This document shows positions 36,037-63,438 of a DNA stretch of 64,000 nucleotides, piece by piece. The position numbers and the translations under genes were made by a program. The notes beneath the pieces are model-generated. The model saw only the letters and a list, made by a program, of their open reading frames with translations. It was not told where the DNA came from and ran no database searches. The stretch comes from Pseudomonadota bacterium (lineage in GTDB: Bacteria; Pseudomonadota; Gammaproteobacteria; Burkholderiales; Burkholderiaceae_C), in assembly GCA_018241325.1 (NCBI GenBank), contig JAFEEB010000004.1:38544-102543 (forward strand), given 5' to 3'. Every line of letters begins with the position of its first letter. The stretch's first letter is position 1.

Positions 36037-36045
36037 GCGCGCCAC

Positions 36046-36474: not shown

Positions 36475-36739
36475 GCAACTTGGCGATCAACGCAGCGCGC
36501 GAGCGCTCGGTGTCATACGGAACGTCGTGCTCGGCCGCGAACACCCGACTCAACTCCTGGGCGCGCGGATTCTGAGCCATCTCCTGCTTGACCTTGAGCA
36601 TCAACTCATACGGGTTCTTGCGGCCGAGCGCCCGCTGCACTGCATCGATGATGAACTGTGACTTGGTGATGCCCTGGCGCTGGGCTGCGAGCTCGAGCTC
36701 TTTCTCGAGCAAGGGCTCCATGCGAACAGATACGGCCAT
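36446..36739 (-). CDS. VapB-type ribbon-helix-helix antitoxin
   Basis: A 97-residue protein. The first 45 residues (MAVSVRMEPLLEKELELAA then GITKSQFIIDAVQRAL) form a ribbon-helix-helix DNA-binding domain; the rest is a helical, charged toxin-binding tail with YELMLKVKQEMAQNPRAQEL. I chose the ATG at 36739 because GGAG lies 7 bases upstream; a TTG four codons earlier is possible. A perfect dyad upstream (36757-36773) is the likely operator. Confidence 0.82.
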   Translation of the reverse strand: MAVSVRMEPLLEKELELAAQRQGITKSQFIIDAVQRALGRKNPYELMLKVKQEMAQNPRAQELSRVFAAEHDVPYDTERSRAALIAKLRAKHGLGAD

Positions 36740-36756
36740 GATGTTCTCCAATCGAA

Positions 36757-36773
36757 ATACAGTATTACTGTAT
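36757..36773. promoter_or_regulatory. palindromic operator of vapB-vapC
   Basis: ATACAGTA-T-TACTGTAT is a perfect 8-base dyad, AT-rich, 18 bases upstream of the vapB ATG and 8 bases after the mcm stop. Ribbon-helix-helix antitoxins bind such sites. Confidence 0.65.
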
Positions 36774-36780
36774 CACATCA

Positions 36781-38937
<2,157 letters not shown>

Positions 38938-48003: not shown

Positions 48004-50238
48004 ATGAGCACGGCAAGCGCGTCGATCGACCCGCCACTGGCCGCAGTCACCGCGGCTGCGGCCAGCTTTGCCGCGCTCGAGTCCAAACTGGGCTATCTGG
48101 ACGCGGCCGATATCGAGCAGGTACGCTTGGCCTACCGGTTTGCCGACACCGCGCATCTGGGCCAATTGCGCCACAGCGGCGAGCCCTACATCACCCACCC
48201 CATCGCCGTGGCCGCCCAGGTGGCCGAGTGGAAGCTGGACGCGCCCGCCATCATGGCCGCGCTGCTGCACGACACGATGGAAGATTGCGGCGTCACCAAG
48301 GCGGATCTGGTCGAGCATTTTGGCGCGCCCGTGGCCGAGTTGGTGGACGGCCTGACCAAGCTGGACAAACTGCGCTTCAACACCCGCGAGGAAGGTCAGG
48401 CCGAGTCCTTCCGCAAGATGCTGCTGGCCATGGCGCGCGACGTGCGCGTCATCCTGGTCAAGCTGGCCGACCGCCTGCACAACATGCGCACCATGGGCGA
48501 CATGCCGCGCAGCAAGTGGGGCCGCATCAGCGGCGAGACGCTGGACGTGTACGCCCCCATCGCGCACCGGCTGGGCCTGAACCAGACCTATCGCGAACTG
48601 CAGGACCTGGCGTTTCGCCACCTCAAGCCCTGGCGCTACAGCGTGCTGGCCAAGGCCGTGGGGCGCGCACGCCAGCGTCGGCGCGACCTGATCCAGAAAG
48701 TCCAGCAAGACCTGGAGCGCGCGCTCAGCGAGGCGGGCCTGTCCGCGCGCATCATCGGGCGCGAAAAACAGCTGTACTCCATCTACCGCAAGATGGACGA
48801 AAAGCGCCTGTCCTTCGCGCAGGTGAGCGACCTGTACGGCGTGCGCCTGATTCTGCCGGACGTCATTGCCTGCTACACCGCGCTGGGCGTGCTGCACCAG
48901 CTCTACAAGCCGGTGCCGGGCCGCTTCAAGGACTACATCGCCATCCCCAAGATCAACGGCTACCAGTCGCTGCACACCACCCTGGTGGGACCGGCCAGCA
49001 TCAACGTCGAGTTCCAGATCCGCACCGAGGCGATGGACCTGGTGGCCGAGGCCGGCGTCGCCGCGCATTGGCTGTACAAGAGCGGCGAGCACGGCCATTT
49101 GCACGGCGAGCAGCTGGGCAATCAGTGGCTGCAGTCGCTGCTGGACATCCAGAACGAGACCCGTGACGCGGCCGAATTCTGGGACAACGTCAAGGTCGAT
49201 CTGTTTCCCGACGCGGTCTACGTCTTCACGCCCAAGGGCCAAATCCTGGCGTTGCCGCGCGGCGCCACCGTGGTGGACTTTGCCTACGCCATTCACAGCA
49301 CCGTGGGCGACCACACGGTGGCCGCCAAGGTCAACGGCGAGCAGGTGCCGCTGCGCACCGAGGTGACCAACGGCGACGTGGTCGAGGTCGTCACCGCCCC
49401 CGTCTCCAGCCCCAACCCGGCGTGGCTGGGGTTTGTGCGCACGGGCCGTGCGCGCTCCAAGATCCGCAGCCACCTCAAGTCGCTGGCGCAAGACCAGTCA
49501 CGCACCCTGGGCGACAAGCTGCTGGCGCAGGCGCTGCGCGCGGAAGGCGTGGGCCAGCCGCCCGGCACCGGACCCGAAAGCAAGCCGACCTGGGACAAGC
49601 TGCTGCGCTTTACGGGCAACCGCTCGCGCGACGAGTTGCTGCTGGACATCGGCCTGGGCAAGCGCAGCGCCAGCATGGTGGCCAAACGGCTGGCCACGCT
49701 GCTGGGCGAGCAAGGCGTCAAGCCCGATGCGCTGCTGCTCACCCGCGCGCGCTACACCGCCCACGAAAACCTCTCGCAAGGCGCCGTCACCGTGGACGGA
49801 TCGGCCGACGTGTCGATCAAATACGCCACCTGCTGCCGCCCGATCCCGGGCGACGGCCTGCTGGGCTACCTCGGGCGCGGCGAAGGCCTGGTGGTGCACA
49901 CCGACGAGTGCGCCGTGGCGCGCCGCCTGCAACACAAAGACCCCGAGCGCTTCATCACCGTGGCCTGGGCCGACGAGCCGGTGCGCGCGTTCGAGGTGGG
50001 CGTGGTGGTCACCGTGGTCAACGGCAAGGGCGTGCTGGCGCGCGTGGCCGCGGCCATCGCCTCGGCCGAATCCGACATCGTGCACCTGGGCATGCCCGAC
50101 GAGGTGGCGCAGGACGCACTGGATCTGCGCTTCGTCATCACGGTGCGCGACCGCACGCACCTCGAGCACGTGCTGCGCACGCTGCGCTGGACGCAGTCGG
50201 TGCTGCGCGCCACGCGCACCGTGCCCACGTCAAGCTGA
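48004..50238 (+). CDS. spoT: bifunctional (p)ppGpp synthetase/hydrolase
   Basis: A 744-residue Rel/Spo protein. The hydrolase HD domain (about 40-200) keeps His65, His89-Asp90 (ALLHDTMED) and KLADRLHNMRTM, so hydrolysis should be active. The synthetase domain has YSIYRKMDEKRLSF and DYIAIPKINGYQSLHTTLVG. TGS (about 400-460), a conserved Cys-containing region (TCCRPIPGDGLLGYLGRG) and a C-terminal ACT domain follow. It degrades and makes the stringent alarmone. TAAATT ends 6 bases before the ATG, suggesting a leaderless transcript. Confidence 0.97.
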   Translation: MSTASASIDPPLAAVTAAAASFAALESKLGYLDAADIEQVRLAYRFADTAHLGQLRHSGEPYITHPIAVAAQVAEWKLDAPAIMAALLHDTMEDCGVTKADLVEHFGAPVAELVDGLTKLDKLRFNTREEGQAESFRKMLLAMARDVRVILVKLADRLHNMRTMGDMPRSKWGRISGETLDVYAPIAHRLGLNQTYRELQDLAFRHLKPWRYSVLAKAVGRARQRRRDLIQKVQQDLERALSEAGLSARIIGREKQLYSIYRKMDEKRLSFAQVSDLYGVRLILPDVIACYTALGVLHQLYKPVPGRFKDYIAIPKINGYQSLHTTLVGPASINVEFQIRTEAMDLVAEAGVAAHWLYKSGEHGHLHGEQLGNQWLQSLLDIQNETRDAAEFWDNVKVDLFPDAVYVFTPKGQILALPRGATVVDFAYAIHSTVGDHTVAAKVNGEQVPLRTEVTNGDVVEVVTAPVSSPNPAWLGFVRTGRARSKIRSHLKSLAQDQSRTLGDKLLAQALRAEGVGQPPGTGPESKPTWDKLLRFTGNRSRDELLLDIGLGKRSASMVAKRLATLLGEQGVKPDALLLTRARYTAHENLSQGAVTVDGSADVSIKYATCCRPIPGDGLLGYLGRGEGLVVHTDECAVARRLQHKDPERFITVAWADEPVRAFEVGVVVTVVNGKGVLARVAAAIASAESDIVHLGMPDEVAQDALDLRFVITVRDRTHLEHVLRTLRWTQSVLRATRTVPTSS

Positions 50239-50793
50239 GGCCTGCGGCGGCGGATAACGCACCGCCAGCACCTCGATCTCCCGCACCCCTGCCGGCGTGG
50301 CCAGTTGCAGCACGTCGCCCACCCGCGCGCGCAGCAGGGTCCGCGCAATCGGGCTGATCCAGCTCACCTCGCCCTGGCTGCTTTCGGCCTCGTCGATGCC
50401 CTTGATGGTCACCGTGCGCTCGGCGCCCTGCTCGTCCGCGTACGTCACCGTGGCGCCGAAAAACACCTGCTCGCCGCCGTGGTGCAGGCTGGGGTCGGTC
50501 ACCTCGGCAATCTCCAGGCGCTTGGTGAGAAAGCGAATGCGCCGGTCGATTTCGCGCAGGCGCTTCTTGCCGTACAGGTAGTCGCCGTTCTCGCTGCGGT
50601 CACCGTTCTTGGCCGCCCAGTGCACCGCCTCGACCACCTTGGGCCGCTCGTCGTCGATCAGGCCCAGCAGTTCGGCGCGCAATCGCGCACAGCCCTGGGG
50701 CGTGATGTAGTTCTTGCCGCCGGCGGGCAGCGGCGGCTGCACCGGCTCGTCGTCGTCCTCGCCGTCGCTCTCGCGCGTGAAGGCCTTGTTCAT
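50230..50793 (-). CDS. greB: transcript cleavage factor GreB
   Basis: A 187-residue Gre factor that rescues backtracked RNA polymerase by stimulating RNA cleavage. N-terminal coiled coil (NYITPQGCARLRAELLGLID) with the acidic tip GDRSENGDYLYGKKRLREID, and a C-terminal FKBP-like domain (VTYADEQGAERTVTIKG, SWISPIARTLLRARVGD). The extra acidic head (SDGEDDDEPVQ) is longer than in GreA and typical of GreB. It converges on spoT with a 9-base overlap. ATG at 50793. Confidence 0.94.
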   Translation of the reverse strand: MNKAFTRESDGEDDDEPVQPPLPAGGKNYITPQGCARLRAELLGLIDDERPKVVEAVHWAAKNGDRSENGDYLYGKKRLREIDRRIRFLTKRLEIAEVTDPSLHHGGEQVFFGATVTYADEQGAERTVTIKGIDEAESSQGEVSWISPIARTLLRARVGDVLQLATPAGVREIEVLAVRYPPPQASA

Positions 50794-50854
50794 GCGTCGA
50801 TGATAGCCATGTGACAATGGCCGACCCTGCGGGCCGCTGCCCGCGAAACACCGC

Positions 50855-53095
50855 ATGACCCGCCCGGCCGCCCACGCCCTCTTGACCCGTCTGCGGTTGC
50901 GCGCCATGCGCCGCGCGCTGCTGAGCAGCTACGTCCTCAACGGTGCCGCGGTGGCGCTGGGCATGTTCCTGATCACGGCGCTCATCCATGCCACGCTCGG
51001 CCCGGTCGCTTCGGCCAACGCCAGCGTGGGCACCATCATCGCGCTCATCTCCGACAACCCGCGCGCCTGCCGGGGCAAGTTCTCGCACCTGATCGCCGCG
51101 CCGATCCTGGGCGTGCCCTTGTTTCTGGCCGTGCAACTGCTGCGCGAGCACCCGGTGGAGCTGGGCCTGTTGCTGCTGCCCGGCACCTTCCTGGCCTTCC
51201 TGTCCACGGCCTGGGGACGGCGCGGGATGCCGGTGGCGGCGGCTGTGATGTTCGCCATGCTGCTGGCCATGGCGCCCAAGCCGGCCGCCGACCTGCACGA
51301 AGCCTTGCTGCGCACCGGCTGGTGCGCGCTGGGCGCCGCGCTGTACGTGCTGTGGGGCACGGCCAGCGGACTCGTGCTCAACGGGCGCTACCGCACGCAG
51401 ACCCTGGCGGAATTGCTGCTTACCCTGGCCGCGCTGCTGGACCTCCATGCCCGGCGCATCACGCGCGCGCTCGACCCGCAAGGCGCCGAAGACCCGCTCG
51501 CCCTGGGCGAGGTGCTGCGCCGCCAGGCCGCCCTGGCCGAGCAGTTGCAGGCCGCGCGCGACCTGATCCTCGAAGCGCCGGGCACGCCGCGCCGCCAGCG
51601 GCTGGCCGGCATGCTGATGGTGGCGCTGGAGATGCGCGACCGCCTGATCGCCGGCGAGCTCGACATCGAGCACGTCCACCCCGGGCCGTCGGCCACGCTG
51701 GCACAGCTGGCCACCGTCTTGCACGCCATGGCCCAGGACGTGGCCGACCTGGCCGACGCCCTGTTGGCGGCCCGCGCGCCTGCCGCCGCGCACGACCATG
51801 GGCAAGCGCTCGCCAGCCTGCGCGAACAAGCCTACGCCGAAGCCCATCAAAACCCGGACGACGTCCGGGCCGTGGCCCACGCTGCCCTGCTGCGCAGCGT
51901 GAGCGTGCGCATCGGTGACCAGAACGCCGCCGTACGCCAATTGACGGCCATCGCGCGCGGCGAGCAGGCGCCCGACCTGTCGGCGGTGCGCAACGGCTGG
52001 CAGTTGTTCGTCAGTCCCGCCTACTGGTCCTTGCAGCCCTTGCTGCGCGTGTGGCACTGGCACCAGCCGGCGCTGCGCCATGCGGTGCGCGCGGCATTGG
52101 CCATCGGCACCGGCTACATGCTGGCCATGCTGTTGCCCTGGGGTTCGCGCGATTACTGGATCCTGATGACCATCGTGGTGGTGCTGCGCGGCAACCTGGC
52201 GCAAACGCTGGAGCGGCGCAACGACCGCGTGCTGGGCACCCTGGTCGGCAGCATGCTGGCCGTGGCCTTTCTCGCGCTGGAGCCGCCCGCCATCGCGCTG
52301 TTGATGGTGGTGGTGGTGGCGCAGGGCGTGGCGCACGCCTTCGCGGTGCGGCGCTACACCGTCACCTCGGTGGCCGGCTCGGTGATGGGCCTGGTGATGG
52401 TGCACCTGCTGTACAGCGGCGGCCATCCGACGTTTGACTTCGTCGAGCGCGTGGGCGACACCCTGCTGGGCACGGCCATTGCCTGGGCGTTCTCCTACGT
52501 TCTGCCCTCGTGGGAGCGCATGCAGATCGCCGCCACCGTGCGCCGCGTGTGCCGCGCCATGGCCCAGCACGCGCGCCAGTCGCTGGCGCTGGCCACGCTG
52601 GTCGAAGTCACCGGTCAGCCCGAGCTGGCCTGGCGCCTGGCGCGGCGCGAGGCCTACGACGCCCTGTCCGCCCTGGTACAGGCCACCGGCCGCGCGCTGG
52701 TCGAGCCGCGCGCGGTGCGCCCGCCCATGGCCGCACTGGAGCAGCTGCAGGGCCACGGCTACCAGTTGCTGGGGCAACTGTCGGCCATTCAGTCCATCTT
52801 GCTGCTGCGCCGCCAGCGGCTGGTGCTGGCCGACGTCACCGCGCCGCTGGCCGACACCGCGCAAGCCGTCGGCCAGGCGCTCGAGCTCGATCAGCCGTGG
52901 CACGTCCGTTCGTCCGACATCCCGCGGGACCCCTCGCTGCCCGAGCGCCTGAGCGCGATCCCCGAGAACCTGCCCGACCCCTTCGCGCCCAACACCAACG
53001 CCTGGCTGCTGCGCCGCCTGCACCTGGCCGAGGACCTGGCCGCCCACGTGCGCGCCGACGCGCTGCGCGTCATCGGCCCGGCGGCGGCGCCATGA
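50855..53095 (+). CDS. FUSC/YccS family inner membrane transporter
   Basis: A 746-residue protein with two sets of about six transmembrane helices (residues 25-190 and 400-560) separated by a cytoplasmic helical domain, the FUSC layout (fusaric acid resistance and aromatic acid efflux type). YWILMTIVVVLRGNLAQTLERRNDRVLGT is the family's second-half signature. The last 25 residues lie in a segment duplicated at 58545-58636, where a truncated copy remains. It likely exports or stores aromatic or fatty acids. Divergent from greB. Confidence 0.9.
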   Translation: MTRPAAHALLTRLRLRAMRRALLSSYVLNGAAVALGMFLITALIHATLGPVASANASVGTIIALISDNPRACRGKFSHLIAAPILGVPLFLAVQLLREHPVELGLLLLPGTFLAFLSTAWGRRGMPVAAAVMFAMLLAMAPKPAADLHEALLRTGWCALGAALYVLWGTASGLVLNGRYRTQTLAELLLTLAALLDLHARRITRALDPQGAEDPLALGEVLRRQAALAEQLQAARDLILEAPGTPRRQRLAGMLMVALEMRDRLIAGELDIEHVHPGPSATLAQLATVLHAMAQDVADLADALLAARAPAAAHDHGQALASLREQAYAEAHQNPDDVRAVAHAALLRSVSVRIGDQNAAVRQLTAIARGEQAPDLSAVRNGWQLFVSPAYWSLQPLLRVWHWHQPALRHAVRAALAIGTGYMLAMLLPWGSRDYWILMTIVVVLRGNLAQTLERRNDRVLGTLVGSMLAVAFLALEPPAIALLMVVVVAQGVAHAFAVRRYTVTSVAGSVMGLVMVHLLYSGGHPTFDFVERVGDTLLGTAIAWAFSYVLPSWERMQIAATVRRVCRAMAQHARQSLALATLVEVTGQPELAWRLARREAYDALSALVQATGRALVEPRAVRPPMAALEQLQGHGYQLLGQLSAIQSILLLRRQRLVLADVTAPLADTAQAVGQALELDQPWHVRSSDIPRDPSLPERLSAIPENLPDPFAPNTNAWLLRRLHLAEDLAAHVRADALRVIGPAAAP

Positions 53096-53110
53096 AGCGC
53101 CAAGCCAACG
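53016..53110 (+). repeat. left copy of duplicated FUSC 3' end
   Basis: The first 46 bases (53016-53061) match 58545-58590 at 43 positions. The likeness continues more weakly through the stop codon, into a stretch whose minus strand reads WRFM, like the end of the MFS transporter encoded at the right copy. The two copies bracket the 5.4 kb catabolic block. Confidence 0.8.
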
Positions 53111-53331
53111 AGTCGATCAGCGCTGCTTTCTCTGCCCCAGATGGCCTGTCCGGCGTCATTCGCTGCCACCAACGAATTTGCCGACGTCACCCTTGCCGAG
53201 CGCAGCTTGCAGCGGCATCATGTCGGACAAGACGCGTCACGACAGCCTTCTGACCTTCAGCAAGACGGTCGAGTCTGCCCTGCGAAACGCAAGAAGTGGC
53301 TGGCCCGCGACCGCGACGGCAAGGAGACAAC

Positions 53332-54102
53332 ATGGACCTCGGCGCAAAACTGAATGGCAAACGCGTGCTCATCACCGGCGCATCGTCCGGGCTCGGTGAA
53401 AATTTCGCCCGTCTGGCCGCTGGCTGCAAGGCCAAGGTGGTGATCGCGGCGCGGCGCAAGGGCCGGCTGGAAAAACTCGCCAAGGAACTGGAGCAACTCG
53501 GCGCGCCGCAAGTCACCGTCATCGAAATGGACGCTGCGTCCGAGCCCTCGATCGACGCCGCCTTCGCGCAGATCGACGCCTCGGGCGACATGCTCGACGT
53601 CGTCGTCAACAACGCCGGCGTCTCCAACGACGGACTGGCGCTCACCCTGCCCACCAAGGATTTCGACGACCTGATGGCGGTCAACGTGCGCGCCGTCTGG
53701 CTGGTTTCGGTGCGCGCCGCACAGCGCTGGCAGGCAGCCGGGCGAGGTGGCTCCATCATCAACATCGCCTCGATCCAGGGCGAGCGCGTGATGCCGGGCA
53801 TCACGCCCTATTCCACGTCCAAGGCCGCGGTGGTGCACATGACCAAGAGCCTGGCGCTCGAATGGGCACGCTGGGACATCCGCGTCAACGCGATCGAGCC
53901 GGGCTACATCGGCACCGAGATGACGGATGCGATGTGGGAAACCGATTACGGCAAGGCGCTGATCAAGCGCATTCCGATGCGCCGACTGGGCAAGCCCGAA
54001 GAGCTGAACGGACTGTTTTTGCTGTTTGCGACCGATGCCGGCTCGTGGATGACGGGTGCCTGCGTGCCGGTCGACGGCGGGCACCTGTGCTCGTCTCTGT
54101 AA
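53332..54102 (+). CDS. SDR family NAD(P)-dependent oxidoreductase
   Basis: A 256-residue short-chain dehydrogenase. The dinucleotide motif is TGASSGLGENF (residues 15-25), NNAG at 93-96, and catalytic Ser147, Tyr160 and Lys164 (PYSTSKAAV). It probably acts on a hydroxyacyl or alcohol substrate in the same pathway as the next genes. AAGGAG precedes the ATG at 53332. The gap before it (53096-53331) has no gene I can support. Confidence 0.93.
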   Translation: MDLGAKLNGKRVLITGASSGLGENFARLAAGCKAKVVIAARRKGRLEKLAKELEQLGAPQVTVIEMDAASEPSIDAAFAQIDASGDMLDVVVNNAGVSNDGLALTLPTKDFDDLMAVNVRAVWLVSVRAAQRWQAAGRGGSIINIASIQGERVMPGITPYSTSKAAVVHMTKSLALEWARWDIRVNAIEPGYIGTEMTDAMWETDYGKALIKRIPMRRLGKPEELNGLFLLFATDAGSWMTGACVPVDGGHLCSSL

Positions 54103-54186
54103 AGCATCAAAGACAGCGCACGGCCTGACCGTCGCCAACGCCCCGATAGCCGGCGTCCTGCCTGCACTCACATCCAGGAGAAAAAG

Positions 54187-55164
54187 ATGACTGACTCGAA
54201 TGCCGCTGTGCTTGACCGATATCGCAACGTCGCCGTCGTTGGCGCAGGCGTGATCGGATCATCCTGGACTGCGCTATTTCTGGCGCATGGCCTGAAGGTC
54301 GTGGTCAACGACCCGCGCGCCGACATCGAGTCCGCCGTCAAGAGCGATCTTGTCGAGATCGCACCGACGCTCAAGGCGCTCGGGCTGCCTTCCGAGGGAC
54401 TTGAGAAGAATTTGCGCTTCGAGGCCGACCTCGAACGCGCGGTTTCCGGTGTCGACCTGGTGCAAGAAAACGGCCCCGAGAAGCCCGAATGGAAGCAGCA
54501 GCTCTGGGCCCGCATTGAAAAAGCGGTGCCTGCCCACGCGCTGCTGCTGTCGTCCAGCTCGGCGCGCCCCGCCACCGAGCAAGGCAGCCAGATGCAAAAC
54601 GCAAGCCGGCTGCTGGTCGGCCACCCGTTCAACCCGCCGCACCTGATCCCGCTGGTTGAGGTGGTGCCGGGCGAGCGCACCGACCCCCAGGCCGTCGAAG
54701 ACGCGGTGGCGTTTTACGCCGCGCTGGGCAAGGTGCCGCGCGTGCTCAAGAAAGAAATCCAGGGTTTCGTGGCCAACCGGCTGCAGCGCGCCATCATGCG
54801 CGAGGCCTGCTATCTGGTGCAAGAAGGCGTGGTCACGGTCGATGAGCTGGACGACATCGTCACCAGTTCCATCGGCATGCGCTGGGCCGTCAACGGGCCC
54901 TTCAGCTCGTTCCACATGGGCGGTGGCCCGGGTGGCCTGGCCGCCTTCTTCACCGATGGACTGGGCAAGAACATGGTGGCCGCCTGGAAGAAAGTGCCCA
55001 CCGTGGAGATGGACGACGTGCTGCGCGAGCGCATCATCAGCCAGACCGCGGCGTCGTTCGGCAAGATTCCGATGGAGCAGATGGAGCGCACCCGCGACAA
55101 CAGGCAGGTCGCGCTGCTGCGCGCGCTCGGCAACGCCCACGCGTCGGGCACGCAGAAGCAATGA
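54187..55164 (+). CDS. 3-hydroxyacyl-CoA dehydrogenase family (lambda-crystallin/carnitine DH type)
   Basis: A 325-residue NAD enzyme. Rossmann motif VVGAGVIGSSWTALF (residues 17-31), SSSSARPATEQ, catalytic His146 in VGHPFNPPHLIPLVEVVPG (split after PP), and the helical C-terminal domain. The nearest known members are L-carnitine 3-dehydrogenase and L-gulonate 3-dehydrogenase, which act on free 3-hydroxy acids rather than CoA thioesters. CaiB next to it makes a carnitine- or hydroxyacid-like substrate plausible, but this is inference. GGAG lies 7 bases upstream. Confidence 0.9.
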   Translation: MTDSNAAVLDRYRNVAVVGAGVIGSSWTALFLAHGLKVVVNDPRADIESAVKSDLVEIAPTLKALGLPSEGLEKNLRFEADLERAVSGVDLVQENGPEKPEWKQQLWARIEKAVPAHALLLSSSSARPATEQGSQMQNASRLLVGHPFNPPHLIPLVEVVPGERTDPQAVEDAVAFYAALGKVPRVLKKEIQGFVANRLQRAIMREACYLVQEGVVTVDELDDIVTSSIGMRWAVNGPFSSFHMGGGPGGLAAFFTDGLGKNMVAAWKKVPTVEMDDVLRERIISQTAASFGKIPMEQMERTRDNRQVALLRALGNAHASGTQKQ

Positions 55165-55215
55165 TGGCCTCGGCCCGGCGCTGACACCCTGGGCCCCAAC
55201 CGCGAGGAAAACCCC

Positions 55216-56418
55216 ATGACCAACATCCTGGACGGCTTGCGCGTCATCGACTGCGGCAGCTTCATCGCCGCCCCTGGCGCCGCCACCGTGTTGTCCGACT
55301 TCGGCGCCGACGTCATCAAGGTCGAGCCGCCCGGCGCGGGCGACGCCGCGCGCACGATTTCGCGCATGCCGGGCAACCCATCCAGCGAGCACCCCTACGG
55401 CTGGCTGCTGGACAACCGCAACAAGCGCGGCCTGGCGCTCAACCTGGCCAGCCCCGCCGGCTTGGCGGTGCTCAAGCGCCTGGCCGAACGCGCCGATGTG
55501 TTCATCACCAACTTTCCGCTGGCGACGCGCAAGAAACTCGGCATCGGTTACGAAGCCCTTTCGGCACTGAACCCGCGCTTGATTTACGCATCATTCACCG
55601 GTTACGGTGAGCGAGGGGCCGAAGTGGCCAAACCCGGCTTCGATCTGACGGCCTACTGGGCGCGCTCGGGCCTGATGGACGGCTGCCGCACAGATGCAGG
55701 CACACCGCCTGCGCGCGCGCTCACCGGCATGGGCGACCACCCCTCGGCGATCTCGCTGTTCGGCGCCATCATGCTAGGGCTGTACCAGCGCGAGCGCACC
55801 GGCAAAGGCTCGCAGGTGGGTTCTTCGCTGCTCGCCAATGGTTTTTGGGCCCATGGTTTTCAGGTGCAGGCGGCGCTGTGTGGCGCAACCTTCTACCCCC
55901 GGCCGCCGCGCGATCAGCACTTCAACGCCCTGACGGCTTACTACCGTTGCCGCGACGACAAGTGGATCATGCTCACCATCCTCAACGAGAATCGCGATTG
56001 GCCGGTTCTGGCCCAGTGCCTGGGCCGCGAGAACCTGATCGATGACCCTCGCTTCGTGCAGCGCGCCGACCGCTTCAAGCACGCCCACGCCTTGATCGCC
56101 GAGTTTGACGCCGCCTTCGCCACGCGCGATCGTCCTGAGTGGCGAAAGATTCTGGGCGACGCCGGCCTGGTGTTCGAGATCGTTGCCAGCGCCCAGGACA
56201 CCGTCACCGACCAGCAGGCCATCGACGCCGGCGTGCTGGTGCCGTTCGACAACGACACCTTGATGACCATCGACAGTCCATTGCACGTGGATGGGGTCGC
56301 CAAGGTCAAGCCACGCAAAGCGCCGGACGTGGGGCAGCACAGCGGCGAGATCCTGCGCGAAGCCGGCTACAGCGACGGCGAGATCGAACAACTTCGCGCC
56401 AGCGAGACCGTGGCTTGA
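55216..56418 (+). CDS. CaiB/BaiF family CoA transferase
   Basis: A 400-residue family III CoA transferase. Landmarks are LRVIDCGSFIAAPGAATVLSD (start of first domain, split CGSFIAAPGAATV), DNRNKRGLALNLASPAG, the catalytic Asp174 in TGMGDHPSAISLFG, and GSQVGSSLLANGFW. It moves CoA between acids without a covalent enzyme-CoA. GAGGAAAA lies upstream. Part of the catabolic block with the adjacent dehydrogenases. Confidence 0.93.
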   Translation: MTNILDGLRVIDCGSFIAAPGAATVLSDFGADVIKVEPPGAGDAARTISRMPGNPSSEHPYGWLLDNRNKRGLALNLASPAGLAVLKRLAERADVFITNFPLATRKKLGIGYEALSALNPRLIYASFTGYGERGAEVAKPGFDLTAYWARSGLMDGCRTDAGTPPARALTGMGDHPSAISLFGAIMLGLYQRERTGKGSQVGSSLLANGFWAHGFQVQAALCGATFYPRPPRDQHFNALTAYYRCRDDKWIMLTILNENRDWPVLAQCLGRENLIDDPRFVQRADRFKHAHALIAEFDAAFATRDRPEWRKILGDAGLVFEIVASAQDTVTDQQAIDAGVLVPFDNDTLMTIDSPLHVDGVAKVKPRKAPDVGQHSGEILREAGYSDGEIEQLRASETVA

Positions 56419-56488
56419 AGGAGCCGGCGGATTGAACACCTGCCCTCGTGCCATCCGAGAACCTTTCCACACCACCCCAAGAGCCCCC

Positions 56489-57472
56489 ATGACACTGAAA
56501 CTGACCCGCCGCGAAAGCCTCATCCTGTTGACCGCTGCATCGCTGGGCCCCTCGGCCCACGCACAGTCGTACCCGAGCAAGCCGATCACGATGGTGGTTC
56601 CCTATCCGCCGGGCGGCGGCACGGACGCCACGGCGCGACTGATGGCCGAGAAAATGGGCAAGAAGCTCGGCCAGAACGTGATCGTTGACAACCGGTCCGG
56701 GGCGTCGGGACTGATCGGCACCGGCGCGGTGGCCAAGGCAGCGCCCGACGGGTACACGATTTTGGTGGCCCTGAGTACCCAGTTCGTGATCAACCCCTTC
56801 CTGTTCAAGAAGCTGCCCTATGACCCGAACAAGGACATCGCGCTGGTGTCCATGATCGCGTCGGCGCCGATCGTGCTGCTGGTGCATCCCAGCGTGCCGG
56901 CCACCGATGTGCCGTCGATGATCAAATACATCTCGGCCAACAAGGGCAAGCTGGCCTATGGCTCCTACGGCATCGGCTCGGCGTCGCACCTGAGCGGCGC
57001 GCACTTGAGCCAGATGACCCACAGCGACATGAATCACGTGGCCTACAAGGGCGAGGCGCCGATGATCCAGGACTTGATTGGAGGCCAGATTCCGATGGGC
57101 TTCGGCAGCGTGGTTCAGGCCAAGTCCATGATTGACGCCGGCAAGCTCAAGGCGATCGCCGTCACGGGCGAAAAACGCCTCGCCCTGCTGCCCAATGTGC
57201 CGACCTTCGTCGAGCAAGGGGTCAAGGACGACGTGTTCCGCACCGTTGGATTTGTCGGAATGGCCGTCCCGGGCGCAACGCCCAAGCCGGTGATCCAGCG
57301 CCTGGCGGCCGAGGTGAAGGCCGCCTGCGATCTGCCCGACGTGCGCGAGCGCATCGCCGGCTTCGGCTTCGAAGCCGTTGGCCTCGGGCCCGACGAGTTC
57401 AACGCGAAAGCCAAGGCGGACGCACAAGTGTGGGCCCGGCTCGTCAAGCAGACCGGCGCATCGCTCGATTGA
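56489..57472 (+). CDS. Bug family tripartite tricarboxylate receptor protein
   Basis: A 327-residue periplasmic receptor of the TctC/Bug family. The signal peptide is Tat-like (LTRRESLILLTAASLG, residues 4-19), cleaved near AHA-QS. The mature domain starts YPSKPITMVVPYPPGGGTD, the Bug hallmark, then NRSGASGLIGTGAVAKA and GGQIPMGFGS. Such receptors feed carboxylates to TctAB permeases or signal; no permease gene is nearby, so it probably serves a permease elsewhere. Confidence 0.94.
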   Translation: MTLKLTRRESLILLTAASLGPSAHAQSYPSKPITMVVPYPPGGGTDATARLMAEKMGKKLGQNVIVDNRSGASGLIGTGAVAKAAPDGYTILVALSTQFVINPFLFKKLPYDPNKDIALVSMIASAPIVLLVHPSVPATDVPSMIKYISANKGKLAYGSYGIGSASHLSGAHLSQMTHSDMNHVAYKGEAPMIQDLIGGQIPMGFGSVVQAKSMIDAGKLKAIAVTGEKRLALLPNVPTFVEQGVKDDVFRTVGFVGMAVPGATPKPVIQRLAAEVKAACDLPDVRERIAGFGFEAVGLGPDEFNAKAKADAQVWARLVKQTGASLD

Positions 57473-57541
57473 AGCTTGCGCAGACAGATGTGCGGCGCCC
57501 AGATGCGTCGCCCGCAGCAACCGCCGTTTTGAGAAAGCACC

Positions 57542-58444
57542 ATGAAAGCATTGCTGGCCCTGCTGATCCGCTACAAGCGTCTCGTGCGCATCGACCTGGC
57601 CGATGGCTCGGTGCAAGACCTGACCGACAACACCGGCGACGCGCCCGATGGCGTCGTCGTGGAAAACGGTGTCGTCTACTGGACGACGATGGGCAAGCCG
57701 ATCGTCGACCCGAACGATCGCAGCGAAAAGGGTCGTGACTACTCGCCGAAAAACGGTGGTGTTCATGGCATGAAGCTGGACGGATCGGCGCCCTTCGACG
57801 TCGTTCCGTCTGGCGGCCTGACGACCGGCAAGCAGCTCGCCAGCGACGGTGCGGGCACGCTCTACTGGGGTGATCGGGAAGGCTTCAAGGTTTCCCGGGT
57901 ACGCATTGACGGGACGGGTCTGGAAGACGTCGTGGTCAATCCTCGCGACGACCAGGGTCTGGGGGAGTGCGTCGGTTGCGCGGTGGATCGGAAACGCGGC
58001 CACGTTTACTGGAGTCAGAAAGGGCCGTCCAAAGGCGGCCAGGGTCGTATCTTTCGCGCCAACCTGACGCTGCCCAAAGGACAAACGCCGGCCACGCGCA
58101 GCGATATCGAAGTGCTGTGGACAAACCTGCCCGAACCCATCGACCTGCATGTCGAAGGCGACCGGCTGTATTGGACCGATCGCGGCGCGCCCCCCAATGG
58201 CAACACCCTGAACCGCGCCTCCATTCCCGGCCCTGGCGAGCGCGGCGTCAAGCCGGAAATTCTGGCCTCGGGCTTTGGCGAAGCGATCGGCCTGTGCGTC
58301 AACGAGGCGATGGGTCTGGCCTGGGTATCGGCGCTCGACGGCAAGATTCGCGAAGTGCCGCTGCCGGACATGCCCGCTGCCGACCGCGCCGAACGCATCC
58401 TCGTATCCTTCGAATCGGCCGTCACGGGGCTGGCCGCGCTCTGA
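57542..58444 (+). CDS. YWTD-repeat beta-propeller protein
   Basis: A 300-residue protein with recurring YW-x-D units: VVYWTTMG (about 45-52), TLYWGDRE (107-114), HVYWSQKG (153-160), RLYWTDRG (208-215), and the decayed LAWVSALD. This is the LDL-receptor YWTD or SMP-30-like six-bladed propeller. No signal peptide is evident; the short hydrophobic start (LLALLIRYKRLVRIDLADGS) is not a classical one. It is the last gene of the block and might bind or hydrolyse the substrate (lactonase-like), but the catalytic metal residues of SMP-30 are not clear. Confidence 0.75.
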   Translation: MKALLALLIRYKRLVRIDLADGSVQDLTDNTGDAPDGVVVENGVVYWTTMGKPIVDPNDRSEKGRDYSPKNGGVHGMKLDGSAPFDVVPSGGLTTGKQLASDGAGTLYWGDREGFKVSRVRIDGTGLEDVVVNPRDDQGLGECVGCAVDRKRGHVYWSQKGPSKGGQGRIFRANLTLPKGQTPATRSDIEVLWTNLPEPIDLHVEGDRLYWTDRGAPPNGNTLNRASIPGPGERGVKPEILASGFGEAIGLCVNEAMGLAWVSALDGKIREVPLPDMPAADRAERILVSFESAVTGLAAL

Positions 58445-58544
58445 CGCGTGACGATTCTGCTCTGCAACAAGCGCCCTGGACCCGACAAGCCTCCCCATTG
58501 ACGCGCCGCCCGAAAGGGTTGGACGGCATTCCGCTGATGCCGCA

Positions 58545-58636
58545 GCCTGCACCTGGCCGCGGACCTGGCCGCCCATGTGCGCGCCGATGCCGACCGGCTC
58601 ATCCGACCACAGGCGGGACCCGCGGCGGCGGCATGA
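58545..58636 (+). pseudogene. truncated FUSC transporter 3' remnant
   Basis: An open 30-codon stretch without a start reads LHLAADLAAHVRADADRLI then RPQAGPAAAA and ends in TGA. It is the homologue of the FUSC C-terminus (LHLAEDLAAHVRADALRVIG) at 53017-53095. It overlaps the 3' end of the convergent MFS gene. It most likely marks the original FUSC end displaced by the 5.4 kb insertion. Confidence 0.75.
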
Positions 58637-59816
58637 AACGCCAGGCGATCGCCCAACCCAGCGCCTGCACCCCCAGCAGCAAGGCCACCGTCCCGGGCCA
58701 GCCGCCGCGCGCATACGCAAAGCCGCCCACCCAGGCGCCGCCAAAGCCGCCCAGGTAGTAGGCCGTGTAATACAGCCCGCTGGCCAGCGAACGCCCCTGC
58801 GTGATGCGATAGGCCAGAAAACTCAGCGTGGCCGACTGCGTGATGAAGGTGCCGCACGAAGCCAGCGCCAGTGCCACCACCACGCCGCCCGCCGTCGGCA
58901 GCAGCGTCAGCCCCACGCCCAGCACCGACAGCCCCACCGACAGCAAGATGGTGCGCCGCGCGCCCAGGCGTGGAATCAGGCGCCCGGCGAGCGGCGTGAC
59001 CACCACGCCGATCAGATACACCGCAAACACGTTGGCCAGTGCCGCCGGGCCGAAGTGATAAGGCGCCCCCGCCAGATGAAAGTTGACGTAGGTGAACATG
59101 CCCACCTGCACGAACAGCACCGTCAAGCCCAGTGCGCACGCCGCCTGCAGACCCGGATGGCGCAGCAGCTCGCCCAAGGTGCGCAGCGCGCCGCCCAGGC
59201 GCAGGTTGGGCACGAAATGGCGCGAGGCCGGCAGCACCCGCCCGACCAGCACGGCGCCCGCCAGGTTCAGCCCGCCCAGCACGCCGAAAGCCGCGCGCCA
59301 GCTCATCCACTCGGTCAGGTGGCCCAGCACGAAGCGCCCCAGAAACCCGCCCAGCACGTTGCCGGCCACATACACCGCCATCACCCGCGCCATGGCCGCG
59401 CCGCGAAACTCCTCGCCGATGTAGGCGATGGTGACCACCGTCACCCCCGGCACCGCCAGGCCTTGCAAAAAGCGCAGCACCGTCAGGCCATGCACCGACT
59501 CGACCTGGATCATCGCCATCGTCGGCAGCGCCAATGCGCACACCGAGGCGACCACCATCGCCTTGCGCCCCAGCGCATCGGAGGCCATGCCCATCAGCGG
59601 CGACACCAGCGCCACCGCCAGCACCGTGGCGCCCACGGCACTGCCGATCTGCACCACGGTGGCGTTCAGGTCGCGTTGCAGCTCAGGCAAAATCGACTGC
59701 ACCGAATACACCTGCAAAAACGCAAACACGCCCACCAGCGCCATCGTCAACAGCAGCAGCGGACCGGGGCGGTCGTTCCAGTCGGGCAGGGCTACGGGAT
59801 TTGGTGATGCAGACAT
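58599..59816 (-). CDS. MFS transporter
   Basis: A 405-residue major facilitator with 12 predicted helices. The loop 2-3 motif is GMASDALGRKAMVVAS, repeated in the second half as GRLIPRLGARRTILLS, both typical of drug/proton antiporters. The C-terminal WRFMPPP region lies in the duplicated FUSC-end segment, so this gene converged on the FUSC gene before the island. The substrate is unknown. Divergent from mutS (87 bases between starts). Confidence 0.92.
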   Translation of the reverse strand: MSASPNPVALPDWNDRPGPLLLLTMALVGVFAFLQVYSVQSILPELQRDLNATVVQIGSAVGATVLAVALVSPLMGMASDALGRKAMVVASVCALALPTMAMIQVESVHGLTVLRFLQGLAVPGVTVVTIAYIGEEFRGAAMARVMAVYVAGNVLGGFLGRFVLGHLTEWMSWRAAFGVLGGLNLAGAVLVGRVLPASRHFVPNLRLGGALRTLGELLRHPGLQAACALGLTVLFVQVGMFTYVNFHLAGAPYHFGPAALANVFAVYLIGVVVTPLAGRLIPRLGARRTILLSVGLSVLGVGLTLLPTAGGVVVALALASCGTFITQSATLSFLAYRITQGRSLASGLYYTAYYLGGFGGAWVGGFAYARGGWPGTVALLLGVQALGWAIAWRFMPPPRVPPVVG

Positions 59817-59903
59817 GGGCGCGACGCAGACTGCGGGCACGGCCGCCGCGTCCACGCAATGACAAACGCCAAGTCTATGCGGACACCGGCCTGAACACAT
59901 TCC

Positions 59904-62738
59904 ATGACCGAAACCGATTTCTCCGCCCACACCCCCATGATGGCGCAATACCTGCGCCTGAAAGCCGACTTCCCCGACACCCTGCTGTTCTACCGCATGG
60001 GTGACTTCTACGAGATGTTCTATCAGGACGCCGAGCGCGCCGCGGCCCTGCTGGACATCACGCTCACCACGCGCGGGCAGTCGGCCGGCCAGCCGATCGC
60101 GATGGCGGGCGTGCCGTTTCACTCGGTTGACGGCTACTTGGCGCGCCTGATCAGGCTGGGCGAGTCGGTGGCGATCTGCGAGCAGGTGGGCGACGTGGCC
60201 ACCAGCAAGGGCCCGGTGGAGCGCAAGGTGGTGCGCGTGGTCACCCCCGGCACGCTGACCGACAGCGAACTGATGAGCGACAAGAGCGAGTCGCTGCTGC
60301 TGGCCGTGCACCCCGGCGCGCGGGGCCGCGTGGGCCTGGCCTGGCTGGCCGTGACGCAGGGCCGGGTGCAGCTGGCCGAGTGCGCCGCCGATGCGCTGCC
60401 GGCATGGATCGACCGCATTGCGCCCAGCGAGCTGCTGCTGCCGCAGGACGCCCCGCCCGCCTTCGAGCAGCGCCTGGGCAACGCACGCGCCGCCCTCACC
60501 CACCGCCCCACCTTCCAGTTCGACGCCGCGCTGGGTCGGCGCAAACTGCTGGAGCAGTTGCAGACCGCCAGCCTCACCGCCTGGAGCGCCGACGACCTGC
60601 GCGAGGCCCACGCCGCCGCCGCCGCGCTGCTGACCTACGCCGAGCACACGCAGGGCCGCGCCCTCACCCACGTGCGCGCGCTGGCGGTCGAGCGCCCGGG
60701 CGAGCTGATCGAGCTGCCCGCCACCACGCGCCGCAACCTGGAGCTGGTACAGACCCTGCGCGGCGAGGACGCGCCCACGCTGTTTTCGCTGCTCGACACC
60801 TGCATGACGGGCATGGGCAGCCGCCTGCTGAAAAGCTGGCTGCTGGCGCCGCAACGCGCGCGCGACGCTGCCAGCGCGCGCCTGCTGGCCATCGGCGCGC
60901 TGCGCGAAGGCGGCCGGTGGCAGCGCCTGCGCGCCACGCTCAAGGGCACCAGCGACGTCGAGCGCATCACGGCCCGCCTGGCGCTCAGCCAAGTGCGCCC
61001 GCGCGAGCTGGTGGCGCTGCGCAGTGCACTACAAAAACAAGAGCTACTTGCGCTTGTCCAGCAAGCGCCAGAGGCATTTTTTACTTCTGATCCTGATCGC
61101 GCGCCCGCCCCTCACCCCTCCCTCTCCCCAGAGGGGCGAGGGCGATCGGCCGCGCCCGTTTTACCCCCTCTCCCCCTGGGAGAGGGTGGGGGTGAGGGCG
61201 CACCCCTTGCCTCGCAGCACGGCGAGCGCCCTGCCCTGTTGGCACAAATCGCCAAAGACTTGCATCCGCCGGCCGAAGCCCTCGACCTGCTGCAAGCCGC
61301 CCTGCAAGACGAGCCCGCCGCGCTGATCCGCGAGGGCGGCGTGATCGCCCCCGGCCTGGACGAAGAACTGGACGAGCTGCGCGCCATCCAGGACAACTGC
61401 GACGCCTTTTTGCTGGAGCTGGAAGCGCGTGAGCGCACGCGCACCGGCATCGCCAACCTGCGCGTGCAGTTCAACAAGGTGCACGGCTTCTACATCGAAG
61501 TCACGCAAGGCCAGGCCGCCAAGGTGCCCGACGACTACCGCCGCCGTCAGACACTCAAGAATGCCGAGCGCTTCATCACGCCCGAGCTCAAGGCGTTTGA
61601 AGACAAGGCCCTGTCGGCGCAGGAGCGCGCACTGGCGCGCGAGAAGTGGCTGTACGAGCGCTTGCTGACCCAGTTGCAGCCGCACGTGCCACAGCTCACG
61701 CGCTTTGCCAACGCCATCGCCACGCTCGATGCGCTGTGCGCGCTGGCCGAGCGATCGCTGACCTTGAACTGGTGCGCCCCCGAATTCGTGCGCGAGCCCT
61801 GCATCGAGATTCGCGCCGGCCGCCACCCCGTCGTCGAGGCGCGCCTGGCCGAGACCAGCGGCACGCCCTTCATCCCCAACGACACGCTGCTGGGCCCCAA
61901 GGCGCGCATGCAGGTCATCACCGGCCCCAACATGGGCGGCAAGAGCACCTACATGCGCCAGGTGGCGCTGATCGCGCTGCTGGCCAGCATCGGCTCTCAT
62001 GTCCCCGCGCAAAGCTGCCGCCTGGGGCCGCTGGACGCCATCCACACCCGCATCGGCGCCGCCGACGACCTGGCCAACGCCCAGTCCACCTTCATGCTGG
62101 AGATGACCGAGGCCGCACAAATCCTGCACGCCGTCGCGCGCCAGGAAGCGCCGGGCCGCCCCAAGCTTGCTGACTCCCCTCGGGGGACGAGCGAGGCGCA
62201 GCCTCGATCCAGGGGCGAATATTCTCTGGTGCTGATGGACGAAATCGGCCGCGGCACCTCCACCTTCGACGGCCTGGCGCTGGCGTCGGGCATCGCCGCG
62301 CACCTGCACGACAAGGCGGGGGCCTTCACCTTGTTTGCCACCCATTACTTCGAGCTGACCGAGTTTCCGGCCACCCACCACGCCGCCGTCAACATGCACG
62401 TGACCGCGGCCGAAAGCGGGCATGACATCGTCTTTCTGCACGAGCTGCAACCGGGGCCCGCCAGCCGCAGCTACGGCATCCAGGTCGCACGCCTGGCCGG
62501 TGTGCCCGCCGCCGTCGTCAACCACGCGCGCCATGCGCTGGCGCAACTGGAGCAAGGCGCCGCTGCCCATCAAGCGCAGGTCGATCTGTTCGCGCCGCCG
62601 CCGGCGACCGCCGCACCCGAACCCAGCGCCGTGGAAGCGGCGTTGGACGCCATCGACCCCGACGCCCTCAGCCCGCGCGAGGCGCTGGAGGCGCTGTATA
62701 GCCTCAAGGCCAAACTGAACAAGCGCGTGGATTCTTGA
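59904..62738 (+). CDS. mutS: DNA mismatch repair protein MutS with in-frame insertions
   Basis: A 944-residue mismatch recognition ATPase, longer than the 850-880 usual for the family. The mismatch motif is Phe35-Tyr-Glu37 (GDFYEMF), the Walker A is GPNMGGKST (Gly674 to Thr682, Lys680), and the Walker B pair is Asp779-Glu780 in [10 protein letters not shown]. Residues 375-435 and about 750-772 are low-complexity segments encoded by repeat DNA; the second sits only a few residues before Walker B, between ARQEAPGRP and [10 protein letters not shown]. The gene remains open, but its activity may be altered. Confidence 0.96.
61028..61075 (+). repeat. family A repeat inside mutS
   Basis: ACTACAAAAACAAGAGCTAC then TTGCGCTTGTCCAGCAAGCG and CCAGAGGC is the fullest family copy in the window, with the GCGCTTG/CAAGCGC inverted pair. 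It encodes [17 protein letters not shown] in the MutS frame. Confidence 0.85.
61106..61200. repeat. 95-bp hairpin repeat inside mutS
   Basis: The left arm CGCCCCTCACCCCTCCCTC (61106-61124) and right arm GAGGGTGGGGGTGAGGGCG (61182-61200) are complementary with few changes, the layout of a widespread CCCTCACCC...GGGTGAGGG intergenic repeat. In frame it encodes Pro/Gly-rich residues 401-432 of MutS. Confidence 0.85.
62160..62216 (+). repeat. palindromic repeat inside mutS ATPase domain
   Basis: CCCCTCGGGGG and AGCGAGGCGCAGCCTCG form small palindromes (GAGGC/GCCTC); the element resembles those at 12379-12491 and 6721-6812. It encodes [19 protein letters not shown] just before the Walker B strand. 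Confidence 0.75.
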
Positions 62739-62792
62739 CGTCCTCGAATTCATGCCGCATGATGGCAGCATCGATAATCGAGGAACCCGACC

Positions 62793-63089
62793 ATGCTCAA
62801 GGAAGTCGGCGCCAGCGGCCAAATTTCGCTGGGCAAGAAATTTGCCGGCCAGTTGTTCGACCTGCAAACGCAGGCCGACGGCAGCATCGTGCTGCAGCCA
62901 GTCAAGGTGGTGCCCGTCACGCACACCGTTCAAGAGCCACGCGCCCCGTACGCGGCCGCATCGCCTCAAAGCGACGTCGCCGCTTGGGCCGAAGCGCATG
63001 CCCAGCAAATTGCCGAGTACAACGCTTGGGCTGCCGAGCGCGAACCGTACTCTCAGCGTGTGCGGCGCTGGCGCAGCGAAGGCGGCTGA
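62793..63089 (+). CDS. chimeric antitoxin (AbrB-like head, CcdA-like tail)
   Basis: A 98-residue protein. The head (1-42), MLKEVGASGQISLGKKFAG then TQADGSIVLQPVKVVP, has the strand pattern of AbrB/SpoVT swapped-hairpin DNA-binding antitoxins. The tail (about 58-96) reads AWAEAHAQQIAEYNAWAAE and EPYSQRVRRW, which resembles the toxin-binding tail of CcdA (helix, then polar residues and a terminal Arg/Trp). CcdA normally has a ribbon-helix-helix head. The stop overlaps the ccdB ATG (TGATG). Function as antitoxin of the next gene is strongly implied. Confidence 0.8.
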   Translation: MLKEVGASGQISLGKKFAGQLFDLQTQADGSIVLQPVKVVPVTHTVQEPRAPYAAASPQSDVAAWAEAHAQQIAEYNAWAAEREPYSQRVRRWRSEGG

Positions 63090-63403
63090 TGGCGCGCTTT
63101 GACATTCACCCCAACCCCATCAAGGCCGATCGCGCCGACTTCCCTTACGTCCTTCAGATTCAGAGCGATTTTCTGTCTGGTTTTGCCGAGCGCGTGTGCG
63201 TGCCGCTGGCGCGTCCCGGGGCGTTTCCCGGCATGACCGAACGGTTCAACCCTGTTATCCGGGTGGGTCATGAGGCCGCTCACCTGCATCCGTTGGGTAT
63301 CGCCGTTTTCCTGCATGCCGAACTGCGTGAGCCCTGTGCCACAGCCAAACCCCAAATGCTGGACATCGAGACTGCTCTGGACATGTTGTTGCGTGGTTAC
63401 TGA
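63089..63403 (+). CDS. ccdB: CcdB family gyrase-directed toxin
   Basis: A 104-residue CcdB-like protein: MARFDIHPNPIKADRADFPY, then VLQIQSDFLSG, RVCVPLARPGAFPG, FNPVIRVGHEAAHLHPLGIAVF (split here as FNPVIRVGHEA and HLHPLGIAVF), ending ALDMLLRGY. CcdB poisons DNA gyrase and has the MazF-like barrel. The C-terminal residues differ from the Trp-Gly-Ile of plasmid CcdB, so potency is uncertain. Translationally coupled to its antitoxin; lies between mutS and dbpA. Confidence 0.87.
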   Translation: MARFDIHPNPIKADRADFPYVLQIQSDFLSGFAERVCVPLARPGAFPGMTERFNPVIRVGHEAAHLHPLGIAVFLHAELREPCATAKPQMLDIETALDMLLRGY

Positions 63404-63438
63404 TCGGGGGCATCGCGGCTCGCGCCGATACCGTCAGG

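Follow-up and report, generated by a model that had tools for sequence, protein, structure and literature searches.

The locus described here lies in a window of 64,000 nucleotides (the whole stretch of DNA analyzed) and consists of a block of five genes placed between the gene of a YccS-like FUSC protein and the convergent gene of an MFS transporter (Table 1). The five gene assignments of an earlier note on this DNA were all recovered, with the SDR, the HADH-type enzyme, the family III CoA transferase, and the TctC/Bug receptor identified by Pfam and the YWTD protein, for which Pfam gave only a sub-threshold SMP-30 match, by a family profile. In the PDB, the HADH protein was comparable to FHMPC dehydrogenase and lambda-crystallin. 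Its best NCBIfam scores all fell under the cut-offs, so by that measure we could not call it an L-carnitine dehydrogenase (235.9 bits for PRK07066, whose cut-off is 414). Tentatively, the operon might combine uptake through the Bug receptor with the oxidation and CoA activation of a small acid, perhaps a 3-hydroxy or carnitine-like one.

Table 1. Features of the locus, with positions in the window and the evidence for each.
Feature	Coordinates	Strand	Evidence
FUSC (YccS-like)	50855..53095	+	Pfam FUSC-like and FUSC_2 above cut-off, ORF; last 28 codons including stop in left copy
Left FUSC/MFS tail-to-tail junction copy	53012..53110	+	Alignment, ORF; holds FUSC end and minus-strand MFS end WRFMAPPPGR*
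Left spacer	53111..53331		Genome search: self-match only
SDR-family oxidoreductase	53332..54102	+	PF13561 1.9e-56; homologues 62-63% identical in G413, G292
HADH, 3-hydroxyacyl-CoA-dehydrogenase-fold dehydrogenase near L-carnitine dehydrogenase/lambda-crystallin type	54187..55164	+	PF02737 and PF00725
CaiB/BaiF-type CoA-transferase family III	55216..56418	+	PF02515 8.9e-97
Bug/TctC periplasmic solute receptor	56486..57472	+	PF03401 1.2e-67
YWTD beta-propeller protein	57542..58444	+	10-homologue profile matches LRP/LDLR propellers
Right spacer	58445..58540		Position, alignment
Right FUSC/MFS junction copy	58541..58651	+	Alignment; detached FUSC tail, stop 58634-58636, overlaps MFS 3' end
Convergent MFS transporter	58599..59843	-	PF07690 3.4e-46, ORF end; 3' end within right copy

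In the left spacer, the 6 of 10 stop-free peptides (at least 20 amino acids) that were searched gave two Pfam matches below the cut-off (E values of 0.024 and 0.16), which we take as chance, and no Pfam match was found in the 4 of 5 stop-free peptides searched from the right spacer. An Rfam scan of positions 50000-64000 gave no match, the promoter scan found nothing, and terminator-like sites were about as numerous as in shuffled sequence (5 versus 4.6).

A stretch of about 100 to 110 bp, in which the 3' ends of FUSC and of the convergent MFS gene overlap, is present twice, on either side of a block of 5.43 kb. Without gaps, positions 53012-53087 and 58541-58616 are 80% identical, and in a second register, offset by 12 nt, positions 53075-53110 and 58616-58651 are 81% identical; in a gapped alignment a single 12-nt indel, which keeps the frame, unites both registers. 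The earlier count of 43 agreeing bases out of 46 (53016-53061 versus 58545-58590) was the same when repeated by eye, and the repeat extends further. Its local score is 89 versus a shuffle mean of 20.9 (standard deviation, 3.1), a value reached by none of 300 shuffles, and the duplication described in the earlier note is real. A search of the genome with the right copy returned the left copy as the only other match (75% over 101 bp). No repeat homology was detected beyond 53110 toward MFS (53107-53331 versus 58648-58900, score reached by 57 of 300 shuffles) or before 53012 into FUSC (52900-53011 versus 58445-58540, 277 of 300 shuffles). The longest exact run common to both copies, by eye, is 15 bp, inside the 80%-identical 76-nt repeat.

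Both copies keep the FUSC frame and the MFS frame open up to a stop, which for FUSC in the left copy is at 53093-53095. The FUSC C-terminal peptides had been described as identical but are only similar (LHLAEDLAAHVRADALRVIGPAAAP and LHLAADLAAHVRADADRLIRPQAGPAAAA). On the minus strand, the MFS frame of the left copy was read by eye (Table 1) and that of the right copy ends in WRFMPPPRVPPVVG*; WRFM is thus found at both MFS ends, as had been claimed, but the tails past it are strongly different (by eye).

The same junction was found without the block in two relatives, L024 (which its coordinates equate with the G816 locus) and L026/G017, both with FUSC, the convergent MFS gene, and mutS. Among the matches listed for the 28 other genomes of the genus, all of which were included in the block search, none exceeds about 870 of 5,701 bases, with the Bug gene accounting for the long ones. 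In tetranucleotide profile the block deviates more than any other part of the window (distance of 0.251 versus a mean of 0.152 and a standard deviation of 0.028, with 0 of 118 comparison windows as high), and its GC content is 0.650 versus about 0.695 in the flanks, a value that is not unique, with other comparison windows down to 0.645. As the site is empty in two relatives, no long match is listed in the genus, and the tetranucleotide profile is the most deviant, the 5.43-kb block is an insertion, and the empty sites and foreign composition bear out the proposal of the earlier note that it entered at the FUSC/MFS junction. An empty site with a remnant-like C terminus had also been predicted and was not seen, the FUSC tails of L024 and L026 (VRADADRVLAEL... 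and LRAATDHVLAEL...) being close to neither copy (33 to 41 of 57 bases). The lone junction of L024 resembles parts of both copies, namely, 58533-58596 at the FUSC tail (82%) and 53082-53107 at the MFS end (92%).

A protein search for FUSC covered 24 of the 28 genus relatives and found it in 14, and G816 was reached separately. Downstream of FUSC, none of 17 relatives' loci has a comparable second FUSC tail (best scores of 21 to 41 versus 93 in the window); the scores of L025, G004, G013, and G033 (27 to 37) equal or exceed the best of their own 40 shuffles and are taken as chance. The FUSC-mutS interval was readable in 10 genus relatives, and there was no mutS match in the contig or fetched stretch of G018, G016, G012, G004, G002, and the second FUSC of G011. 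The neighboring mutS itself contains two in-frame insertions that are absent from six relatives, the first a dispersed repeat and the second adjoining a conserved motif.

The two junction copies are mutually the nearest sequences, agreeing at 48 of 57 bases versus at most 41 of 57 with the sequences of 19 relatives, and they differ at 9 of the 57 bases (about 16%) plus the in-frame 12-nt indel. Among the FUSC codons with a single difference, laid out by hand with the indel excluded, six of nine are silent (expected fraction of 0.30, P = 0.026); the other three alter the residue, and in one further codon all three positions are changed. Read by eye, the MFS frame adds two silent differences and one replaced codon. 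Third-position differences amount to 7 of 12, an excess that is not significant alone (P = 0.066). At the nine differing sites, L024 favors the right copy 5:2 and L026 does so 4:3, and of the 19 relatives' sequences nine are nearer the right copy, nine nearer the left, and one is tied, so these sites do not single out a native copy. The FUSC identity profiles versus the 19 sequences all drop alike toward the C terminus, with no break that would mark a replaced 3' end.

We propose, with a probability of roughly one-half for the account as a whole, that the foreign 5.43-kb operon was inserted by a single crossover of a circularized donor fragment with a related junction. A foreign catabolic operon would have arrived at the tail-to-tail junction on a molecule in which it was joined to a related strain's version of that junction, about 100 bp long, and this molecule would have closed to a circle and recombined once with the chromosome inside the junction stretch. 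The outcome would be a junction copy on either side, with the left edge of the block as the end of the donor junction and the right edge as the point of circle closure. The repeat layout fits one crossover inside shared homology giving two copies. As the copies differ by nine substitutions and an in-frame indel, with six of nine FUSC codon changes silent, the participation of a related sequence is supported, but not proven, by this comparison, and we favor two related lineages as the source of the copies. A related donor is probable; for the circle and single crossover, our confidence falls a little short of even. According to the part of PMC3240628 used here, 56 of 60 Lac- clones of E. coli yielded the PCR product that indicates a flanking duplication. 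The 14 duplications that were sequenced had lengths of 109 to 950 bp and were explained there by one crossover with a circle from which part of the homology had been lost, so these clones offer a precedent for the event proposed here. Against this account stand the few informative sites, the three residue-changing single changes and the wholly different codon, the replaced MFS codon and the strongly different MFS tails (both by eye), the nonsignificant third-position excess, the even split of the relatives over the two copies, and the length of the longest exact run, at present a short one for pairing by RecA. A donor that combines the junction with the block was not found.

Homologous recombination of a linear donor (FUSC end and block) within FUSC, followed by an illegitimate right join, would, as the earlier note supposed, make the left copy the donor end and the right copy the native remnant. 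We consider this unlikely, even though five of the seven decided sites of L024 agree with the right copy and homology-facilitated illegitimate recombination has been reported, in the parts of PMC3240628 and PMC2884548 used, for three competent species and, as a rare event, for E. coli. In the same part of PMC3240628, that route is described as yielding a deletion, and the duplication clones are ascribed to a single crossover. The 9:9 split of the relatives' sequences also speaks against the linear donor, as do the FUSC identity profiles, which contain no break of their own.

Less probable still is a duplication in situ, in which a staggered break or insertion would have doubled some 100 bp of the resident junction, the two copies being identical at first and diverging later. 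Donor homology would be unnecessary, the copies would be expected to be each other's nearest sequences, as they are, and selection on one copy would enrich silent changes too, which also counts against the circular donor. However, substitution of about 16% plus an indel implies an old event, yet the composition of the block is still the most deviant, the silent bias (P = 0.026 only) involves a copy detached from FUSC, and about 100 bp far exceeds ordinary target-site duplications.

Islands that integrate at gene 3' ends leave a restored end on one side and the displaced end on the other, and this is the layout seen here. We nevertheless regard as very unlikely a site-specific island whose own att restored FUSC, with the native end displaced and the integrase lost later, as no integrase, transposase, relaxase, or phage gene was recognized in the five block proteins or in 10 of 15 spacer peptides (at least 20 amino acids), the tRNA scan found none in the window, and no comparable second tail was found in the 17 relatives' loci. 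An insertion sequence or composite transposon finds no support either, with no transposase among the block proteins by Pfam, and a comparison of the left spacer with the inverted right spacer, whose score was equaled or exceeded by 283 of 300 shuffles, revealed no terminal inverted repeats. An assembly chimera of two related strains' contigs joined at the repeat is scarcely credible in spite of the 93 contigs of the assembly, as the copies share, by eye, no exact run longer than 15 bp, which is under usual assembly word lengths, and the block and both flanks lie within a single 130-kb contig.

Parts of the block gene set recur together in other bacteria, and YWTD relatives adjoin HADH or CaiB in several distant ones. 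Plasmid p186_1 of Bradyrhizobium sp. 186 codes for an HADH-CaiB-SDR cluster (likeness of 64%, 57%, and 38%, respectively) with partners unlike those of the block, an acetoacetate decarboxylase and a fatty acid-CoA ligase, and plasmid pRinCIP108029d of Rhizobium indigoferae for a CaiB-YWTD-HADH cluster (HADH, 39%; YWTD, 41%; CaiB, 47%). These clusters differ in gene order and partners, with no match to the Bug receptor in the stretches read. YWTD relatives lacking such neighbors speak against a fixed set of genes, as no HADH or CaiB match was found within the approximately 3.7 kb examined in G745 and G637, and the annotation shows neither immediately next to YWTD in Paraburkholderia largidicola or in Rhodococcus pyridinivorans YF3, where a CoA transferase lies about 1.8 kb away. 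Among 399 genomes of the family (including its own and five genus relatives), a YWTD relative at an E value of ≤1e-40 was found in 1 of the 398 others. HADH, CaiB, the YWTD propeller, and SDR form a recurring, uncharacterized gene set in distant bacteria.

If they weaken mismatch repair, the mutS insertions could have made it easier for diverged sequences to recombine. On a highly speculative reading, which we think very improbable, genes would be gained repeatedly in the FUSC-mutS interval of this genus, and the cargo at the present locus would have entered through recombination between diverged junctions, possibly helped by these insertions. The locus is of interest because the gene acquisition has left a readable scar but no recognizable mobile element, and the two diverged junction copies suggest that an operon of several kilobases can be led into a chromosome by short, diverged homology. 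Neither the scar nor the recurring gene set is surprising.

With its empty site, foreign composition, and direct repeats at the base, the block has the features of a horizontally acquired small variable segment, and the acquisition is of the ordinary kind, with an unusually readable scar. As described in the part of PMC2884548 used, such segments are likewise short, present in one genome, missing in relatives, and flanked by repeats at the base, but 66 to 94% of those repeats are under 30 bp, whereas the present ones measure about 100 bp, are imperfect, and have frames open in both directions. The insertions in the part of PMC3240628 used, which were observed alongside homology-facilitated illegitimate recombination, came from an experiment with a cloned lacZ piece, in contrast to the natural, diverged copies seen here; in both cases the foreign DNA lies between short duplicates of the 3' part of the target gene (109 to 950 bp there).

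The 5.43-kb stretch of five genes that lies between two copies of the FUSC/MFS junction, here called the block, is a foreign insertion explicable by known routes. Its entry at this junction, as the earlier note had proposed, is borne out by empty sites in two relatives and by its composition. The loci L024 (JAFKGE010000015.1) and L026 (MKTG01000001.1) both contain FUSC, a convergent MFS gene, and mutS, with no match to the block between them. The alignment of the window with L024 runs to 53061 and resumes at 58623. L024 has 90 bp in this gap, and in and beside these 90 bp short stretches of its one junction match each of the window copies. Base composition, which the earlier note had suggested comparing with the flanks, also sets the block apart: its GC is 0.650 versus ca. 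0.695 on each flank, GC3 is 0.77 to 0.87 versus 0.87 to 0.93, and its tetranucleotide distance exceeds that of all 118 sliding windows, while GC by itself is not unique, as other windows reach 0.645. Sliding windows starting at 29001 to 33001 combine low GC (0.645 to 0.651) with a raised tetranucleotide distance (0.19 to 0.20), so this region is possibly a second foreign stretch.

Coordinates of the features in the window
Feature	Position	Remarks
Possible second foreign stretch	29001-38430	
Repeat, part 1	53012-53087 and 58541-58616	80% identity
Repeat, part 2	53075-53110 and 58616-58651	81% identity, register shifted 12 nt
Match to L024 junction, left copy	53082-53107	92% over 26
Block (SDR, HADH, CaiB, Bug/TctC receptor, YWTD-type protein)	53111-58540	5430 bp, between the two junction copies
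Match to L024 junction, right copy	58533-58596	82% over 65
mutS	59904-62738	944 aa
mutS in-frame insertion 1	61080-61238	53 aa, residues 393-445
mutS in-frame insertion 2	62145-62222	26 aa, residues 748-773

In L024 (12271-13477) and L026 (7223-8376), the match to MFS is split in two, each part in a different frame, and one TGA was reported within it in G816, by coordinates the same place as L024; the gene may therefore be broken in both empty-site relatives, or the contigs may carry indels. In seven other genomes of the genus (G019, G010, G023, G014, G011 at its second FUSC, G001, and G013), FUSC lies at most 0.6 kb from mutS with no MFS match between, and in G024 (L060, 9102-11129) a methyltransferase and a PLP enzyme of Cys/Met metabolism take the place of MFS. 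The interval is thus variable, with other genes in other lineages; the E. coli mutS-rpoS region is also described as mosaic (PMC4209514). MutS, 944 aa long in the window, reads as 865 to 874 aa in six relatives; both of its insertions, the second of which directly precedes a conserved motif, are absent from all six when aligned. The first is dispersed-repeat sequence, 61060-61190 having 55 matches in the genome with itself counted, and the stretch that holds the second (62120-62240) has six genome matches including itself, five of them short.

Besides the SDR and the Bug/TctC receptor, the block codes for a 3-hydroxyacyl-CoA-dehydrogenase-fold enzyme (HADH), whose top-scoring models, one 3-hydroxyacyl-CoA dehydrogenase and two carnitine dehydrogenases, all fall under their own cutoffs, a family III CoA-transferase (CaiB), and a fifth protein whose family profile matches the YWTD propellers of LDL-receptor-related proteins. 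The predicted role is to take up a small acid and oxidize it, with CoA activation. Neither the five block proteins nor the 10 of 15 spacer peptides searched included an integrase or transposase. A DNA search gave matches in 27 of 28 other genus genomes; among the matches listed, coverage was at most ca. 870 of 5701 bases, and the long ones were to the Bug gene. YWTD relatives (E ≤ 1e-40) occur in 1/398 other family genomes and 4/397 other phylum genomes. Plasmid p186_1 of Bradyrhizobium sp. 186 has adjacent HADH (64% identical) and CaiB (57%) with an SDR (38%) behind the pair, and Rhizobium indigoferae has consecutive CaiB, YWTD, and HADH. YWTD adjoins HADH in Paraburkholderia caribensis, Streptomyces SAT1, Tsukamurella, and genomes G235 and G711; G537 holds CaiB, YWTD, and HADH inside 3.7 kb, and in G413 and G292 SDR (62 to 63%) and HADH (56 to 58%) are at most 7 kb apart. 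Some genomes speak against a fixed gene set: in G745 and G637 neither HADH nor CaiB was matched in the ca. 3.7 kb examined, and no HADH is annotated next to YWTD in Rhodococcus pyridinivorans YF3 or Paraburkholderia largidicola. In the plasmid collection, no record reached 80% coverage of the block at a single place.

The two junction copies form a repeat of ca. 100 to 110 bp, both parts of which join in a single gapped alignment. Its similarity is far above chance (score of 89 versus 20.9 for shuffles, standard deviation 3.1, reached in 0/300), and none was detected past either edge by the same comparison. The near identity reported in the earlier note holds (43/46 bases, counted by eye), and a search of the genome with the right copy matched only itself and the left copy. 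FUSC and MFS stand tail to tail. The FUSC stop is the TGA of CATGAA in either copy, and the opposite-strand MFS frame crosses it and terminates within the FUSC tail, so each copy contains both gene ends. The MFS end (WRFM) is indeed present in each, as had been noted, but beyond WRFM the tails are strongly unlike, WRFMAPPPGR* in the left copy (read by eye) and WRFMPPPRVPPVVG* in the right.

The copies agree at 48/57 bases, and the best of 19 FUSC sequences from 18 relatives' genomes agrees with either at 41/57. The shared tail LHLAxDLAAHVRADA and stop position place their origin in a single lineage or in close sister lineages. Across 25 aligned FUSC codons, single differences are silent in 6/9 (expected 0.30, P = 0.026) and nonsilent in 3, and a further codon is changed at all three bases; taken by itself, the excess at position 3 is weak (7/12 differences, P = 0.066). 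Adjoining MFS codons show two silent differences and one replaced codon (by eye), and the 12-nt indel preserves the frame. From these differences, we lean towards the copies having diverged before the insertion, as working gene ends in two related strains. No donor was found. The direction of FUSC-end replacement put forward earlier could not be confirmed: at differing sites L024 sides with the right copy 5:2, L026 with the right 4:3, and G016 with the left 7:1; taken together, the 19 sequences divide nine to nine with one tie.

Regarding the mechanism, a deletion is the described outcome when a linear fragment is joined by homology at one end and illegitimately at the other (PMC3240628). Repeats at the base of short variable segments are reported as common (10 to 18% of segments), 66 to 94% of them being under 30 bp (PMC2884548). 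The duplications described for merodiploidy by transformation (PMC3784515) are, at ca. 100 to 900 kb, far larger than the repeat in the window. By analogy, the layout fits the flanking duplication of E. coli, for which a diagnostic PCR product was reported in 56/60 Lac- clones; the 14 duplications sequenced there spanned 109 to 950 bp and were attributed to one crossover with a circular molecule from which part of the homology was missing (PMC3240628). The left edge of the block would then be where the donor's junction ended, and the right edge the point where the circle was closed.
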